A stretch of 64,000 nucleotides of DNA from Heliomicrobium modesticaldum Ice1. GTDB taxonomy: Bacteria > Bacillota > Desulfitobacteriia > Heliobacteriales > Heliobacteriaceae. A model generated the notes under the pieces. It had not been told where the DNA came from. It saw only the letters and a program-made list of their open reading frames with translations, and did not search any database. Below are positions 21,635 through 38,861 of the stretch, piece by piece (positions within the stretch are counted from its first letter, which is position 1; every line of letters begins with the position of its first letter). The DNA lies in assembly GCF_000019165.1 (NCBI RefSeq), contig NC_010337.2:1884501-1948500 (forward strand), given 5' to 3'. The position numbers and the translations under genes are program-made.

Positions 21635-21933
21635 GTGCGCCCGGCATGGGCGTTGTCTCTAGGGTGGAAGTCCCGAACGCCGAAGGTGGCAGTAGGCGTT
21701 AGCTTAAGGCAAGGGTGTCCGCCGCGAGGCGGAATCTGAAGGAAGCCAGCGGCAAACCTCCGGCCCGAGGACCACGAACCCCAGGTGAGGCTAGCGGCAG
21801 TTGGATGAGCTTGCCGAACAAAGCGAAGTCCTTGTCACCGAAGGCTGCCGAGAGTAAATGGGGCGGGTAGATGGAGGGAAAGGCAACGTTCTTACCCGGG
21901 GAGGCCTGCCGGGGGACCAAGTAACTTGGGAAA

Positions 21934-21951
21934 CCACGCCGAAAGGCGTGG
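21934..21951 (+). other. Probable EBS1 hairpin of the group II intron
   Basis: Stem CCACGC / GCGTGG with loop CGAAAG. The loop is complementary (one G-U pair) to the last six bases of exon 1, TTTTCG, and so is the likely exon-binding site 1 in domain I. Confidence 0.7.
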
Positions 21952-22020
21952 CTGAACCGGCAGGAGTCAGCAGAGGTCATAGTAGGCTGGCCCGACGTCC
22001 GGCCAGATGAAGGACCGAAC

Positions 22021-26350: not shown

Positions 26351-27724
26351 TTACTTCAGTTTGGCCTTGACGACATCCCAGAAGCGCTGATCCTCGAAGC
26401 CGAGGCGCCAGATGCCGATGCCGCCGAGGCCATACTGGTTGACGAGGTCCAGTTTGTATTCGGTGGACCGGGCGTCTTCATACCACACCGTATGGCTACG
26501 GCCATAGCTGTCGGTGTATGTAAACCAGGGTGATTTTGACGTTTCGTCCCATTTGGGCGTCACACCGTACTGGCTGAGCAGTTTGGGTACAGTGAGGTAG
26601 TTTACCGTTTTCGTGCTGGTTCCATACCAGTCATAGCCGTAGGTGGCGATGCCGAGGAGGATCTTTTCCTTGGGCATTGTCGACAGGGTGTACTGGACGG
26701 CCTTGGTGACATAGCCAATGGAGGCGATCGGGCCGGGGGTCCCGCCGGGGTAGTGCTCGTCATAGGTCATGATCTGCACGTAGTCGGCGTACTGACCGAT
26801 GGCGTTGAAGTCGAAGGCGCCCCCCCAGTTGGAGGTGGTGTCATTGTAGGTCTTGCCGGTGACAGAGAGGATGACTGTATACCCCATGGGGCCAAGGGCT
26901 TCTTTCACTTCTCTGACGAACTGGGTGTAGTTGGCCCGGTCGGACGGGTGGATGTACTCGATATCGATGTTGACGCCGGCGTAGCCGTATGTAGGCAGGA
27001 TGGTCTTTAACCGGTTGATCACCTTCTGGCGGTTCGCCGCGCTGCCGAGCAAGGAAGAGGCGATGCTTTGGTTGAACCCGCCATTGGTGTAGTTGTGGAT
27101 CAAGGCGTAGGTTTTGATGCCTTTGGACTTGGCCAGGGTGAGCCCGTCGGTGGGAGCGGTGCCGGTCAGGTTGCCCTGCCCGTCTACCAGATAGGTGAAG
27201 GTAGAGATGGCGTTCATGGAGCTGCCGTAGTTGACGAGGGAGTTATAGGCGGCCTTGTCTCCCGCATAGTCGACGGGGTAGTAGCCGAGGATGATCTTGC
27301 TGTGCGGGGGCGCCGGAGTGAATACCGGTTCGGTCGCGGCGGGTTCGGTCGCGGCGGGTTCGGCCGCGGCGGGTTCGGCCGCGGCGGGTTCGGCCGCGGT
27401 GGGTTCGGCCGCGGCGGGTTCGGTCGCGGTGGGTTCGGCCGCGGCGGGTTCGGTCGCGGTCGGTTCGGTCGCGGTGGGTTGGGTCGCGGTGGGTTCGGTC
27501 GCAGTCGGTTGGGTCGCGGTCGGTTCGGTCGCAGTGGGTTCCGTTACAGCAGGTTGGGTTGTAGTCGGTTCGGTGGGGGCTGGGGTAGGGGCAGTCGGGC
27601 TGGTAACGGTCGTTTTCTTCAGTGTGCCAGGTGTCGCCTCTTTTTTTGCCGCCAAGGCCAGACCGGGAAGGAGCAGGGACAGGATCAGGAGCAGTGGCAC
27701 GATGAAGCGCAGTTTGTTTCGCAT
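26351..27724 (-). CDS. Secreted glycoside hydrolase family 18 protein with Pro/Thr repeat linker
   Basis: A 457-residue exported protein. Signal peptide: RNKLRFIVPLLLILSLLLPG. Residues ~50-140 are a five-residue repeat (TEPTA, TQPTA, AEPAA variants), a probable extended wall-spanning linker. The GH18 TIM barrel follows: ILGYYPVDYAG, then GVNIDIEY, which has the catalytic Asp-x-Asp-x-Glu pattern, and QIMTYDEHYPGG. The start at 27724 is chosen for AAAGGAG ~12 nt upstream and the signal peptide. GH18 enzymes cut chitin or N-acetylglucosamine bonds; in spore formers they often act on spore or cell-wall peptidoglycan. Confidence 0.92.
   Translation of the reverse strand: MRNKLRFIVPLLLILSLLLPGLALAAKKEATPGTLKKTTVTSPTAPTPAPTEPTTTQPAVTEPTATEPTATQPTATEPTATQPTATEPTATEPAAAEPTATEPAAAEPTAAEPAAAEPAAAEPAATEPAATEPVFTPAPPHSKIILGYYPVDYAGDKAAYNSLVNYGSSMNAISTFTYLVDGQGNLTGTAPTDGLTLAKSKGIKTYALIHNYTNGGFNQSIASSLLGSAANRQKVINRLKTILPTYGYAGVNIDIEYIHPSDRANYTQFVREVKEALGPMGYTVILSVTGKTYNDTTSNWGGAFDFNAIGQYADYVQIMTYDEHYPGGTPGPIASIGYVTKAVQYTLSTMPKEKILLGIATYGYDWYGTSTKTVNYLTVPKLLSQYGVTPKWDETSKSPWFTYTDSYGRSHTVWYEDARSTEYKLDLVNQYGLGGIGIWRLGFEDQRFWDVVKAKLK
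27328..27573 (-). repeat. 15-bp in-frame tandem repeat in the GH18 linker
   Basis: About 16 copies of a 15-bp unit related to GGTTCGGTCGCGGCG on the + strand, encoding five-residue T/A-E/Q-P-T/A-A repeats. The length is a multiple of three, so copy changes keep the frame. Confidence 0.93.
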
Positions 27725-27842
27725 GACCTGTGCAAACTCCTTTTCTGTGTTGTTTGTCTCGTTGCTTGTCCCAAAACCAATGTAACATAGGGTAGAATTT
27801 TCATATATAAGACCGTAGTCCTGAAATATTTTAAAAAAATAA

Positions 27843-27874
27843 GGAAAAACCGTCCTGAAGCGGTCGGTTTTTCC
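27843..27874. other. Hairpin in the divergent GH18/oxidoreductase region
   Basis: Ten-pair arms GGAAAAACCG / CGGTTTTTCC around a 12-base loop. It lies upstream of both divergent genes. It could be a terminator-like structure in a leader or an operator. The rest of this 285-bp gap is AT-rich with no other feature I can call. Confidence 0.5.
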
Positions 27875-28009
27875 GTGGTGCAACTGTTATAGGCTGCCTC
27901 TTCCCCGGAATAGCTGCCCTTTTGTTTAGGAACATTAATTCCGTGCCAGGATTCGACAGAGAGCAACACAGCAAATGGTGTAAATCAGCGAAGGAGTGAT
28001 CGAGTTAGG

Positions 28010-31395: not shown

Positions 31396-31424
31396 TTGAC
31401 ATTTCCATACAGCTATGGTACTTT
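31396..31424 (+). promoter_or_regulatory. Probable trp operon promoter
   Basis: Perfect -35 TTGACA (31396-31401), 17-bp spacer, weak -10 TACTTT (31419-31424). A start near 31431 would put the NAG repeat at the very 5' end of the transcript. Confidence 0.6.
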
Positions 31425-31430
31425 TACTGC

Positions 31431-31479
31431 GAGATGAGTTTTAGAGTAGTTGAGCGGAGTCCAGTGGAGTCGAGCGGAG
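31431..31479 (+). promoter_or_regulatory. TRAP-like RNA-binding site in the trp leader
   Basis: Ten triplets at 5-6-nt intervals: GAG at 31431 and 31436, TAG at 31442 and 31447, GAG at 31452 and 31457, CAG at 31462, GAG at 31467, 31472 and 31477. Spacers are all 2 nt except one of 3. Bacillus TRAP (MtrB) binds eleven (G/U)AG triplets with this spacing when charged with tryptophan. A terminator follows 28 nt later and trpE 112 nt later. No mtrB is in the window; the HutP homologue at 19 kb is another possible reader. Confidence 0.82.
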
Positions 31480-31506
31480 AGGCGGTATTTTCTGATGTTG
31501 TCAGGA

Positions 31507-31538
31507 AGCCGGTCTACCTTCGGTGGGCCGGTTTTTTT
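31507..31538 (+). terminator. trp leader terminator (attenuator)
   Basis: Ten-pair stem CCGGTCTACC / GGTGGGCCGG with a short TTC loop, followed by T7. Its position between the NAG repeat and trpE is that of an attenuator. I could not draw a convincing antiterminator by eye. Confidence 0.88.
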
Positions 31539-31590
31539 GTTCGCTTTTTTCCGGTCTCGCTGCACACTTCGCCTGGAAGGAGGGTGAAGG

Positions 31591-33137
<1,547 letters not shown>

Positions 33138-33141
<4 letters not shown>

Positions 33142-33725
33142 TCGTCGTCATCGATAACTATGATTCCTTCACCTATAACCTGGTCCAGTACCTGGGGGAG
33201 ATGGTCGACGCCGTTGAGGTTTACCGCAACGACGCTATCGCGCCTGAGGCCATCGCCGGCCTCGCCCCCTCCCACATCGTCATCTCGCCGGGACCTTGCA
33301 CCCCCAATGAGGCGGGCATCTCGATGGATGTGATCGGCCGCTACGCCGGGCAGATTCCCATCCTGGGCGTCTGCCTCGGTCACCAGTCGATCGGTCAGGT
33401 CTTCGGCGGGCGCGTCATCCGAGCGTCCCGGTTGATGCACGGCAAGACTTCGCCGATCTACCATGACGGGCGGACGATCTTTGCGGGCTTGCCCAATCCC
33501 TTCACGGCCACGCGCTACCACTCGCTGATCGTCGAGGAGGAGAGCCTGCCTGACTGCCTGGAGGTCACGGCGCGGAGCGACCAGGGCGAAATCATGGGTC
33601 TTCGCCACCGGGAGTATGCCGTCGAGGGCGTGCAGTTTCATCCGGAGTCGATCCTGACGGAGGCAGGGAAAGGGTTGTTGCGCAATTTTCTCAGTGTAAG
33701 ATACAGCAGAGGTGAGACGAGATGA
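33138..33725 (+). CDS. trpG: Anthranilate synthase glutamine amidotransferase subunit
   Basis: A 195-residue class I glutamine amidotransferase. Catalytic Cys in [11 protein letters not shown], and His/Glu in [11 protein letters not shown]. Start GTG overlapping the trpE stop by 4 nt, so translation is coupled. It may also serve aminodeoxychorismate synthase (PabA role), as in Bacillus, since no second copy is visible. Confidence 0.95.
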
Positions 33726-34810
33726 GCCAGTCCCTGGCGATAGCCAAGCACAGCCTTAAATGCCTGTTGAGTGGCGAGCGCCTCGGCGAAGAGCGGGCAG
33801 AGGAACTGATGAACGCCGTCATGGAGGGGAAGGTCCCCTCGGTGCAACTGGCGGCGTTGCTCGTCGCCTTGCGCTTGACCGGCGAGGGTGAAGAGGAGAT
33901 CGCCGGTTTCGCCCGGGCCATGCGCAGCCGGGTAGGTCGCGAACTGGCCGAATACGTGCCTGCAGCCTTTGAAATGACGCGGCGGCAACTGGTCGATACC
34001 TGCGGAACCGGCGGCGATGGCGCCGGAACCTTCAATATCTCCACGACAGCCGCCCTGGTCGTGGCCGCCGCCGGTGTGCCTGTCGCCAAGCACGGCAACC
34101 GGGCCATGTCAGGCCGCGCCGGTTCGGCCGATGTGCTGGAGGCCCTCGGCGTCACCGTCGATCTGGCGCCGAACTACTCCTATCAGTGTCTGATGCAGAC
34201 GGGATTCGGCTTCTTTTTCGCCCCCCAGTGCCACCGGGCCATGGCCCACGCGGCGCCGACACGGCGGGAGCTGGGCGTGCCGACGGTCTTTAACCTGTTG
34301 GGCCCCTTGAGCAACCCTGCCGGGGCCGAGCGCCAACTGCTCGGCGTCAGCAGCGCCGAACGGGTGAAGGTGATCGCCCAGGTGCTTCGCCGCCTCGGGG
34401 TCACATCGGCCTGGGTGGTCCACGGTCAGGATGGCCTCGACGAGATCAGCCTGACGGCGCCGACGACGGTGGCCCGGCTGGAAGCGGGAGAGGTCCACCT
34501 GGAGACCCTCGATCCCCGCGCCTACGGCTTCAACTATTGCGCCCCCGAGGACTTGAAAGGGGGCGACCGCGAGCGGAACGCCGCCATCACTGAGGCGATT
34601 TTGAATGGCGAGGCGGGGCCTCGTCGGGATATTGTCCTCTTGAACGCTGCCGCCGCCCTCTGCGTCTCCGGGAAGGTTGACGGATTGGCGCAGGGGATCG
34701 CTTTGGCCCGGTCGGTCATCGACAGCGGCGAGGCGCGGGCCTTGCTGGAGCGGGTCAAAGCGTTTACGGCGGCAGCGGCCTCCTTTCGAGTAGGCGGGGT
34801 GAGCGTATGA
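33722..34810 (+). CDS. trpD: Anthranilate phosphoribosyltransferase
   Basis: A 362-residue enzyme joining anthranilate and PRPP. Family motifs: [44 protein letters not shown] and [16 protein letters not shown]. The first 15-20 residues are slightly longer than typical. Overlaps trpG and trpC by 4 nt on each side. Confidence 0.96.
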
Positions 34811-35673
34811 CTGATCCGGTTTCCCCGATCCCCTTGACAGGTTTTTTGGCGATCCTGTGGGAGATCCAGGCTGATCGCGTCCTAAAAGCGCGCCAGGAAG
34901 TCGGCCTTTCCGAACTGGCGCGCGGCATCGCCCGCATGGGGCCGGTCCTGGATTTCGCCGGGGCGCTCCGGCGGCAGCGTCCCTCGGGGCCTGTCCGGGT
35001 CATCGCCGAGGTGAAACGGGCTTCGCCCTCTAAAGGCCCCCTCTTTCCGGAGGCGAAGGCAGGTGACCTGGCTGCTCGCTATGAACAGGCCGGTGCGTCG
35101 GCCATCTCCATATTGACGGAGGAAAAATACTTTTTGGGTTGTCTCGACGATCTCCAGGAAGCCAAGGAACAGGTCAGCCTGCCGGTGATGCGCAAGGACT
35201 TTCTGATCGACCCCTATCAAATTGCGGAGGCCCGCCTCTGCGGCGCTGATGCCTGTCTGCTTATCGCCGCCATGCTCGGGCCGTCCCGCCTCGACGAGAT
35301 GTGCGCCGCCGCCTTGGAGTTCGGAATCCACACGCTGATCGAGGTTCATGGCGAGGAAGACCTGGCCTGGGCGGCGGAGGCGGTAGAGAAAAACCGCGCG
35401 CAGCGGCCCGGCTGGCTGCCGGTTGTCGGCATCAATGCTCGCAATCTGGCCACATTGAAGGTGGACAAGGAGCAGGCCTTGCGCCTCGGCGCGGCGCTGC
35501 CGGAGGGCGTCGTCAAGGTGGCCGAAAGCGGCATCGGCGGCGCCAGCGACGGGCAGCGCGCTCTGGCGGCCGGTTTTGACGCCATCCTCGTCGGCGAAGC
35601 CCTGGTGACGGCAGCCGACCCCGGGAAGGCCTTGCGGGACTTGATCGGTCTTGAAAATCGAAGCGGCCTTTAG
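34807..35673 (+). CDS. trpC: Indole-3-glycerol phosphate synthase
   Basis: A 288-residue TIM-barrel enzyme closing the indole ring. Motifs: VIAEVKRASPSKGPL (catalytic Lys), ISILTEEKYFLG, VMRKDFLIDPYQI, VVGINARNLATLKVD and VAESGIGG. Overlaps trpD by 4 nt. A terminator-like hairpin separates it from trpF. Confidence 0.96.
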   Translation: MTDPVSPIPLTGFLAILWEIQADRVLKARQEVGLSELARGIARMGPVLDFAGALRRQRPSGPVRVIAEVKRASPSKGPLFPEAKAGDLAARYEQAGASAISILTEEKYFLGCLDDLQEAKEQVSLPVMRKDFLIDPYQIAEARLCGADACLLIAAMLGPSRLDEMCAAALEFGIHTLIEVHGEEDLAWAAEAVEKNRAQRPGWLPVVGINARNLATLKVDKEQALRLGAALPEGVVKVAESGIGGASDGQRALAAGFDAILVGEALVTAADPGKALRDLIGLENRSGL

Positions 35674-35684
35674 AATCATACAAC

Positions 35685-35727
35685 AAGGGTGCCTTCACAG
35701 GGTACGGTTCAAGGCACCCTTTTTTTC
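35685..35727 (+). terminator. Hairpin with T run inside the trp operon (trpC-trpF)
   Basis: Eleven-pair stem AAGGGTGCCTT / AAGGCACCCTT with a 15-base loop, then a run of T. It could lower expression of trpFBA relative to trpEGDC, or end one transcript and leave trpFBA to an unseen promoter. Confidence 0.78.
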
Positions 35728-35742
35728 AAGGGAGGTCCTGCC

Positions 35743-36423
35743 ATGTTCGCCAACCCGCGCGTGAAAATCTGTGGCATTCGTTCTTTTCAAGATGCGGAAG
35801 CGGCCCTGGGCGCCGGCGCCCATGCCATTGCTTTCAATTTTGTTCGCCCTTCCCGCCGCTATATCCACCCGGAGGCGGCCCGGGAGATCATCCTTGAACT
35901 GCCGCCCTTCGTCTCTGTCGTCGGCGTCTTCGCCGATGAGCCCCGCTACAGCGTCGAGGAGATCGCCTCTTTTTGCCGGCTCCAGGCGCTCCAGTTTCAC
36001 GGTGAAGAGACGCCCGAATACTGCCGCCGCTGGTCCTACCCGGTGATCAAGGCCTTCCGGTTCGGCGACGGCGCGCCGGCAGCAAAAGCAGGTGCCACTG
36101 CCTTTACGGACTGGGAATCTTTGGCCCAAGCGGCCCATGAGTACGATGTCAACGCCTTTCTAATCGACGCTTACTGCCCGAACGCACTCGGCGGGATGGG
36201 GCGGGCCTTCGATTGGTCCAAGATCGGCGGCAGACTGCGCCGTCCGCTGATCCTGGCCGGGGGATTAAACCCGAATAATGTCCGTGAGGCCATCGTTCGC
36301 GTCCGTCCCTTCGGTGTCGACGTGGCCTCGGGCGTCGAGACGGACGGGAAAAAGGACCTGGCGAAGGCGGCGGCCTTTGTGGAAGCGACGCGATTTCGCT
36401 TTGGCGATGACGATGGACGATGA
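35743..36423 (+). CDS. trpF: Phosphoribosylanthranilate isomerase
   Basis: A 226-residue TIM-barrel isomerase. Motifs: VKICGIRSFQDAEAA (catalytic Cys), FNFVRPSRRYI, LQFHGEETPEYC and AGGLNPNNVREAI, ending GVDVASGVE. The ATG at 35743 follows GGGAGG by 7 nt. A 105-nt gap with little signal precedes trpB. Confidence 0.94.
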   Translation: MFANPRVKICGIRSFQDAEAALGAGAHAIAFNFVRPSRRYIHPEAAREIILELPPFVSVVGVFADEPRYSVEEIASFCRLQALQFHGEETPEYCRRWSYPVIKAFRFGDGAPAAKAGATAFTDWESLAQAAHEYDVNAFLIDAYCPNALGGMGRAFDWSKIGGRLRRPLILAGGLNPNNVREAIVRVRPFGVDVASGVETDGKKDLAKAAAFVEATRFRFGDDDGR

Positions 36424-36528
36424 TAAGTCTGTCGACGGGCCAGTGCATCGGGCAATGAGCCGGCGCTTTGGAGCTCACGCGACTTCGGTGAACGAATGAT
36501 TTTGCACAATAAGAAAGAGGTGTCCGCC

Positions 36529-37713
36529 TTGATTGGACAGCTTCCCCCAGATGGTCGTTTTGGCGCTTTCGGCGGCGCCTTTGTCCCCGAGACGCTGAAG
36601 CCGGCCCTTGAGGAACTGGAGGCCGCATTCCGGCAGATGACCGACGATGCTGTCTTTCGGGAGGAGTTGCAGACGCTCCTCGCCGAATACGCCGGCCGGC
36701 CCAGCCGCCTCTACTTTGCCCGGCGGCTTACGGAACACCTGGGCGGCGCCCGCCTCTACCTGAAGCGGGAGGATCTGAACCATACCGGTTCCCATAAGAT
36801 CAACAACACCCTCGGACAGGTGCTGATGGCCAAGCGGATGGGCAAAAAACGGGTCATTGCCGAGACGGGCGCCGGACAGCACGGCGTGGCCACGGCGACG
36901 GCCTGCGCCCTCTTCGGCATCCCTTGTGAGGTCTATATGGGCGCGGAAGACGTAGAGCGCCAGGCGTTGAACGTGCTGCGCATGCAACTGTTGGGAGCGA
37001 AGGTGATCGCCGTCACCTCGGGCACGCGGACGCTCAAAGACGCCATCAACGAGGCCATGCGCGACTGGGTGGCCAATGTGCAGGACACCTTTTACTGCTT
37101 CGGCACCGCCGCCGGCCCTCATCCCTATCCTTCGATTGTGCGGTACTTCCAGTCGGTCATCGGCATCGAGGCGCGCGCCCAGATCCTGGACAAGGAAGGC
37201 CGCCTTCCCGACGCCGTGCTGGCCTGTGTCGGCGGCGGCAGCAACGCCATGGGCATGTTTTCCGGCTTCCTGGACGATGCGTCGGTCCGCCTGATCGGCG
37301 TCGAGGCCGGCGGTGACGGGGTGAAGACGGGGCGGCACTCGGCGTCGCTCACGGCCGGCCTCCCCGGTGTGCTGCATGGCGCCGTCTCCTACCTGTTGCA
37401 GGACGACGACGGGCAGATCATGGGGACCCATTCCATCGCCGCTGGTCTTGACTACCCCGGTGTGGGACCCCAACTCTCTTACTTAAAAGACAGCGGCAGA
37501 GCCGAGTTTGTGGCGATCACCGATAAAGAAGCCCTGGAGGGCGTCCGCATCCTGGCCCTGACGGAGGGCATCCTGCCGGCCCTGGAAAGCGCCCACGCCA
37601 TCGCCCAGGCGGCGAAAATGGCGCCCCAGATGAGCCCGGACAGCCTGTTGATCGTCAACCTGTCGGGCCGCGGCGACAAAGACGTGCACACACTGGCCGG
37701 GGAGGTGGGCTGA
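36529..37713 (+). CDS. trpB: Tryptophan synthase beta chain
   Basis: PLP enzyme joining indole and serine, about 394 residues. Motifs: [15 protein letters not shown] at the N-terminus, [13 protein letters not shown] (PLP Lys), [14 protein letters not shown], and [13 protein letters not shown] prefer TTG 36529 (AAAGAGGTG 6 nt upstream, N-terminus matching the family) over ATG 36496, which lacks a ribosome-binding site; the ATG would add 11 residues. trpA starts right after the stop. Confidence 0.95.
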
Positions 37714-37714
37714 G

Positions 37715-38530
37715 ATGGAAGACCTGCGTGGAACAGAACGGTTGACTGCGACCTTCGCCAACCTGAAAGCCGAAGGCAAGCGGGCCTTCATCGCCTATGT
37801 GACGGCGGGAGACCCTGATCTGGAGACGACGCGGGAACTGGTGCTGACGCTGGAGAAGAATGGCGCCTCGATCATCGAACTGGGCGTTCCCTTCAGCGAC
37901 CCTGTCGCCGATGGGCCCGTCATCCAGGAGGCGGCCGTCCGGGCGCTGGCCGGTGGGACGACGCTGACCAAAGTGCTGGCGATGGTGCGGACGCTGCGCC
38001 GGGAGACGTCGATCCCCATCGTCCTCCTCACTTATTACAACCCGGTTCTGCGCTTCGGCCTTTTGCGCTTTGCCCGCGAAGCGGCGGCCTCCGGCGTCGA
38101 CGGCGTCATCGTCGCCGACCTGCCGGCCGAAGAAGGCGGCGTGCTGAGAGAACCCCTGGATGAGTTAGGGTTGGCCTTGATTCCTCTGGTCGCGCCTACA
38201 TCGACACCGGAACGCATTCAACGGATCGCCGAAAAGGCGCGCGGTTTCATCTACTGCGTCTCACTGCTTGGGGTGACGGGGATGCGGTCTGACCTGCCGC
38301 CTGACGCGGCAGCCTTGCTGGAACGGGTGCGGGCGATGACCGATGTTCCCTTGGCTCTCGGCTTCGGCATCTCCAGGGCGGAGCATGTGGCGATCGTGGC
38401 GCCCAACTGTGACGGCGTCATCGTCGGCAGCGCCATCGTCAAGCTCATCGCCCAAAACCTCGGTGACCGGGCGAGAATGCTCGCTGAGGTGGGCGCTTTT
38501 GCCCGAGAGATGGCGGCGGCTGTCGGTTGA
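37715..38530 (+). CDS. trpA: Tryptophan synthase alpha chain
   Basis: A 271-residue TIM-barrel lyase releasing indole. Motifs: AYVTAGDPDLETT, IELGVPFSDPVADGPVIQ (catalytic Glu and Asp), GVIVADLPAEE and GFGISRAEHV. Starts 1 nt after the trpB stop with GGAGG inside trpB. Last gene of the trp set before a new promoter region. Confidence 0.96.
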   Translation: MEDLRGTERLTATFANLKAEGKRAFIAYVTAGDPDLETTRELVLTLEKNGASIIELGVPFSDPVADGPVIQEAAVRALAGGTTLTKVLAMVRTLRRETSIPIVLLTYYNPVLRFGLLRFAREAAASGVDGVIVADLPAEEGGVLREPLDELGLALIPLVAPTSTPERIQRIAEKARGFIYCVSLLGVTGMRSDLPPDAAALLERVRAMTDVPLALGFGISRAEHVAIVAPNCDGVIVGSAIVKLIAQNLGDRARMLAEVGAFAREMAAAVG

Positions 38531-38595
38531 TTCTGGGTATCTGATAAAAAGGCGCTCGGAATATCCCTGAGTCAAATTCGGACAATTGGAAAAGG

Positions 38596-38624
38596 TTGCA
38601 GCTAGGTGGGGGCTGTGCTATATT
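38596..38624 (+). promoter_or_regulatory. Promoter before the aroF leader
   Basis: TTGCAG (38596-38601), 17-bp spacer, TATATT (38619-38624). Transcription would begin near 38631, leaving a ~230-nt leader before aroF. Confidence 0.75.
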
Positions 38625-38630
38625 GGGTAT

Positions 38631-38788
38631 TGTAGGGATCATCTCTCGGAGATGGTCGAGGTAGCGGAGGCGATGGGGTCGTCCTCCGGTGCACCGCTGG
38701 TGATGGGCTGTTTTTTTTGTAGCATGGAAGTACGGTAGGAGTCTGGCTGTCGATTTTGAAGGTACTCCGCCTGCTGGGGTGCCTTTTT
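38631..38788 (+). ncRNA. Structured leader (or small RNA) upstream of aroF
   Basis: About 158 nt between a good promoter and a strong terminator. It can form CATCTC-GAGATG, GGAGGCGA-TCGTCCTCC and CACC-GCT-GGTG hairpins, the last followed by T8 at 38711-38718. No T-box core or known riboswitch core is seen. A possible short ORF ending GCFFCSMEVR reads two Phe codons in the T run, but its ribosome-binding site is poor. It could be an attenuator for aroF or an independent sRNA. Confidence 0.5.
38759..38788 (+). terminator. Leader terminator upstream of aroF
   Basis: Ten-pair stem AAGGTACTCC / GGGGTGCCTT with a seven-base loop and T5, located 74 nt before the aroF start. Confidence 0.88.
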
Positions 38789-38861
38789 GTCTTCTCGGGC
38801 CGACGATTGCCTGACCTTCCGACCGGACACATTAACAGAAGGACGAGGGAGGATTTGTCAC

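Follow-up and report, generated by a model that had tools for sequence, protein, structure and literature searches.

A probable TRAP-dependent transcription attenuator before the trp operon of a heliobacterium, with a likely second target at trpP

In Bacillus trp leaders, TRAP binds eleven NAG triplets and promotes termination. The B. subtilis model includes NAG triplets with 2-3 nt spacers and an overlapping antiterminator and terminator in the trpE leader (PMC3913778). At trpP, B. subtilis TRAP represses solely by blocking ribosome binding (PMC13170310, PMC11255114). A literature search found no TRAP work in heliobacteria; key older papers lay outside that search, and an earlier mention is possible. 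We analyzed a 64-kb stretch of DNA (the window; positions 1,884,501-1,948,500) from a genome that forms one contig of 3,075,407 bases; its TrpE and MtrB place it in the Heliobacteriaceae, within the Clostridia. The window contains an intact trpEGDCFBA operon, and sequence and folding predictions make it highly likely that the region upstream of it, 31396-31590, is a TRAP-dependent transcription attenuator of the operon. The elements of the leader and the genes that follow are listed below.

31396..31424, + strand: trp operon promoter as read from the sequence, with -35 TTGACA (31396-31401), a 17-bp spacer and an extended -10 TGG-TACTTT (31416-31424)
31431..31479, + strand: predicted TRAP-binding array of ten NAG triplets, with spacers of 2 nt and one of 3 nt
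31476..31518, + strand: hairpin predicted to act as antiterminator, sharing bases with both the last NAG triplet and the terminator's 5' arm (dG -14.7, z -2.2)
31509..31538, + strand: intrinsic terminator (attenuator), CCGGTCTACC-TTC-GGTGGGCCGG followed by TTTTTTT (dG -21.0), conserved in 9/9 heliobacterial leaders
31564..31593, + strand: trpE ribosome-binding region, with the SD AAGGAGGG (31577-31584) and a TTG start (31591), part of which a predicted local hairpin would occlude
31591..33141, + strand: trpE, anthranilate synthase component I (Pfam PF00425/PF04715; NCBIfam TIGR00564 over cut-off)
33138..33725, + strand: trpG, glutamine amidotransferase subunit (Pfam PF00117, 3e-60)
33722..38530, + strand: trpD, trpC, trpF, trpB and trpA (Pfam matches; trpD TIGR01245)

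After trpA, the same strand carries the genes of DAHP synthase, prephenate dehydratase and prephenate dehydrogenase, and the next ORF reads by eye as EPSP synthase. A separate leader-like region precedes the DAHP synthase gene (window 38560-38860), in which a possible -10 and, at 38758-38786, a U-tailed hairpin can be seen; it contains no NAG array and gave no credible Rfam match. Elsewhere, the window holds group II intron D1-D4 RNA at 21718-22015 (Rfam RF02001, RF01998) and, at 26351-27883 on the minus strand, degenerate TEPT/AAEP-type repeats in what looks by eye like a glycoside-hydrolase-like secreted protein.

The sequence-only reading of this DNA had described ten NAG triplets (nine of them G/UAG) with 2-3 nt spacers, a TTGACA promoter ahead of them and a strong terminator between them and trpE. 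All three descriptions agree with the sequence. The triplets at 31431-31479 read GAG at GAG ttt TAG ag TAG tt GAG cg GAG tc CAG tg GAG tc GAG cg GAG at, which is nine G/UAG and one CAG, and thus one triplet fewer than the canonical eleven. The first triplet lies at, or a few bases from, the likely transcription start, so the functional triplets would number nine to ten. An array of this length lies far beyond chance expectation: when the 64-kb window was dinucleotide-shuffled 150 times, no array on either strand exceeded six triplets, and 5000 shuffles of the local 300-nt segment likewise peaked at six. Only two sites in the whole 3.08-Mb genome, the trp leader and the trpP leader, hold an exact run of seven triplets spaced by 2 nt. 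The nine heliobacterial genomes, which span five genera, all carry 9-11 triplets at the same position before trpE. TTGACA is invariant in their trp leaders, and in most of them TGn stands before a TAnnnT-like -10. We also observed that 13 nt of the array, GAGTCGAGCGGAG (31467-31479), are invariant in 9/9 heliobacterial trp leaders, spacers included, even though TRAP spacers need no conservation; no pairing partner accounts for all nine leaders.

The terminator stem CCGGTCTACC/GGTGGGCCGG forms ten pairs over 31509-31531, followed by seven T. The sequence-only reading had suggested folding the leader for a competing antiterminator, and such a hairpin emerges from folding and recurs in the nine relatives. 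The fold was computed for the nascent RNA alone, before the 3' arm of the terminator is made. In each of the nine leaders, the hairpin pairs a 5' strand that contains the last NAG triplet with the terminator's own 5' arm, which serves as its 3' strand. The sequence of the inner part varies between genera while its pairing is retained. The hairpin is better than shuffled sequences (z below -2) in seven of the nine leaders, with weak z-scores in G080 and G082. By these folding predictions, the conserved hairpin is the antiterminator required by the TRAP model.

With tryptophan plentiful, Trp-loaded TRAP would wrap the nascent triplets as they emerge from RNA polymerase. TRAP on the last triplet (31477-31479) would remove the base of the antiterminator (31476-31518), leaving the 5' arm of the terminator (31509-31518) free; the terminator could then form and transcription would end before trpE. 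With tryptophan scarce, TRAP would be off the RNA, the antiterminator would fold first and the operon would be transcribed. In the window leader, the terminator (dG -21.0) beats the antiterminator (-14.7) at equilibrium, and we therefore infer that the choice of fold must be kinetic. The equilibrium probability of the terminator in this leader is 0.96 with the array free vs 0.94 with the array blocked. More generally, the full-length RNA favors the terminator in 8/9 leaders whether the array is blocked or free, and equilibrium folding with a blocked array was discarded as uninformative on the switch.

Absence of mtrB, the TRAP gene, from the genome was part of what the sequence-only reading had named as grounds for abandoning the idea. 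The genome encodes one mtrB of 77 aa, which matches the Pfam family TrpBP (PF02081) with E 3.7e-40 and 137.5 bits against a cut-off of 21.3. MtrB aligns across its whole core to solved TRAP structures (E 3.8e-30 to 1c9s). Aligned to a B. subtilis reference row, it retains G23, T25, T30, F32, K37, Q47, T49, S53, K56 and R58 (B. subtilis numbering); the core of this alignment is confirmed by that to the solved TRAPs. The retained residues, K37, K56 and R58 among them, are those of the tryptophan pocket and the RNA contacts. A dnaE-like gene (judged by eye) lies on one side of mtrB, and a 66-aa ORF and then accD on the other. A search of the genome for anti-TRAP (rtpA, PF15777) gave no match, while the B. 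subtilis control was detected.

Arrays and regulator occur together across genomes. Of the 83 class genomes, 18 encode mtrB, and the nine from the family are all among them. Sixteen of the 17 readable trpE leaders in mtrB-positive genomes of the class contain at least six chained triplets, and the remaining leader has five. By contrast, none of the 18 mtrB-negative trpE loci of the class reaches six. The association of array and mtrB gives a Fisher p of ~4e-9, with kinship ignored. One genome (G044) has the array with mtrB undetected, in an assembly that is 76% complete. Beyond the class, mtrB is present in Moorella, Carboxydothermus, Pelotomaculum, Paenibacillus and Bacillus. The sequence-only reading had held that the layout implied a tryptophan-dependent regulator outside the classical bacilli. 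This is right in that the Heliobacteriaceae are Clostridia; the surprise is modest, since mtrB is widespread in Clostridia-type Bacillota. A plain count of the NAG pattern was also tried as a regulon finder across the class and rejected as unspecific, with AAG/TAAAG repeats matching in mtrB-negative genomes. A further conserved NAG array was seen in two related mtrB-positive genomes (G040:C57:17283-17319 and G041:C152:24383-24419), and it is possibly an extra TRAP target.

TRAP might instead bind the leader and act chiefly on trpE translation, refolding the RNA to hide the SD, with the terminator secondary. Control of this kind is known as an added layer at B. subtilis trpE (PMC11255114), and folding predicts a comparable switch in three relatives. 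In G075, G076 and G078, CACUCUCC before the trpE SD has two alternative predicted partners, the SD (GGAGGGUG) and the triplet array, and blocking the array lowers the predicted SD accessibility from 0.58, 0.76 and 0.22, respectively, to 0.00. The predicted pairing in these three can follow the same logic as the translational control of B. subtilis trpE. The window leader has diverged at the CACUCUCC region, however, and an array-dependent SD switch was rejected for it, as the predicted unpaired fraction of its SD hardly moves (0.57 with the array free vs 0.55 with it blocked). Considering also that the strong U-tailed terminator is retained in 9/9 leaders, we regard action mainly on translation as unlikely.

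Attenuation by a leader peptide (ribosome-mediated) or a T-box (tRNA-mediated), with the NAG triplets incidental, is less likely still. Both mechanisms are common at trp operons, and an ATG at 31434 starts a frame through the leader. This ATG is not conserved (it is TTG in G077) and the frame has no Trp cluster, so that we dropped it as a leader peptide. The T-box model RF00230 is absent at its gathering score in the window and at E<=5 in the leader, and the trp leader matched no riboswitch, T-box or other Rfam family. Moreover, the triplets track mtrB across genomes, which also bears on a third alternative, an array that is mere chance or a degenerate purine-rich tandem repeat. Purine-rich 5-nt repeats (AAGAA, TAAAG etc.) do fit the pattern in many mtrB-negative genomes, and the bare pattern is unspecific. 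Yet the 18 mtrB-negative trpE loci have no such array, whereas the triplets considered here are G/UAG with mixed spacers, associated with mtrB and kept in position in nine genomes of five genera. A repeat origin is therefore scarcely credible. The preferred reading is TRAP-dependent attenuation of transcription ahead of trpE.

The second array in the genome (1,218,995-1,219,036) lies upstream of trpP (PF17099, 5.5e-18), behind which come genes for two ECF ATPases and a T component (trpP-ecfA-ecfA-ecfT). The region 1,218,960-1,219,120 contains a NAG array of 5 + 7 triplets and a terminator. All six heliobacteria with trpP keep both the array and the terminator, as does the Desulfosporosinus-like G040, and no such array was found in three mtrB-negative genomes with trpP. 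As a candidate antiterminator, pairing between a terminator arm and the array is predicted in 7/7 trpP leaders and beats spacer-shuffled controls in only two. The array is well removed from the trpP start codon (~200 nt upstream of the gene) and an intrinsic terminator comes after it; judged from this layout, transcription attenuation is the likelier mode at trpP. The same regulator very probably controls trpP (the tryptophan ECF S-component) and ecfA-ecfA-ecfT in the same way as the trp operon.

A possible third site covers the trpD ribosome-binding site.

33709..33726, + strand: candidate weak TRAP site over the trpD RBS, GAG gt GAG ac GAG at GAG (seven triplets from 33692 counting CAG/AAG)

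The trpD RBS is GAGGTGAGnnGAGATGAG in most heliobacteria, with 4-7 chained triplets in 9/9. There are 7-9 triplets in the mtrB-positive Thermincola, Thermosyntropha and Desulforadius, and at most three in mtrB-negative relatives. Since the SD and ATGAG supply some of these triplets for free, we treat this candidate weak TRAP site as a lead and not as a finding. Taken as a whole, we lean toward a heliobacterial TRAP regulon consisting of attenuation at the trp and trpP-ecfAAT operons plus the triplet site at the trpD RBS, with no detectable anti-TRAP.

TRAP attenuation is an already known switch, and the novelty here would rest chiefly with the trpP-ECF attenuator and the lineage. If true, TRAP attenuation of trpP transcription is a mechanism undescribed for B. 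subtilis, and an attenuator before trpP-ecfAAT adds support to the view that this ECF transporter carries tryptophan. The trp leaders would extend a textbook RNA-protein switch of Bacillus to phototrophic Clostridia, with binding site and regulator consistently paired. They also form a natural series with different antiterminators, 9-11 triplets, strong terminators and no anti-TRAP. Such a series suits two debated points, TRAP's dependence on the attenuator hairpin and the number of triplets it requires.

Compared with the known systems, the heliobacterial leader resembles that of B. subtilis, as far as sequence and folding tell, in its triplets and spacers, its overlapping antiterminator and terminator and the presence of mtrB in the genome. 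It differs in having ten triplets instead of eleven and an antiterminator that overlaps mainly the last triplet. The heliobacterial terminator is strong and GC-rich with an unbroken U7, while its B. subtilis equivalent has been called weak (PMC3913778). Unlike in B. subtilis, trpG is inside the operon and no anti-TRAP was found. The gene for the regulator is placed between the dnaE-like gene and accD, whereas in B. subtilis mtrB sits with folE/mtrA. Moorella, Pelotomaculum, Desulforadius and the Desulfosporosinus-like genome likewise have a NAG array and a terminator before trpE and contain mtrB. Their terminator reads like CCAGTGCTCATTTGAGTGCTGG, whose CTCAT can pair, by eye, with the last GATGAG of the array; heliobacteria instead have CCGGTCTACTTCGGTAGGCCGG and a different antiterminator. 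The trpP gene of B. subtilis (yhaG) is also a tryptophan transporter gene with a TRAP site, which here is a predicted one. In B. subtilis, TRAP covers the RBS (PMC11255114, PMC13170310), whereas the heliobacterial array is placed well upstream and ahead of a terminator, and trpP is the first gene of an operon that includes dedicated ECF ATPase and T-component genes, unlike its B. subtilis counterpart.
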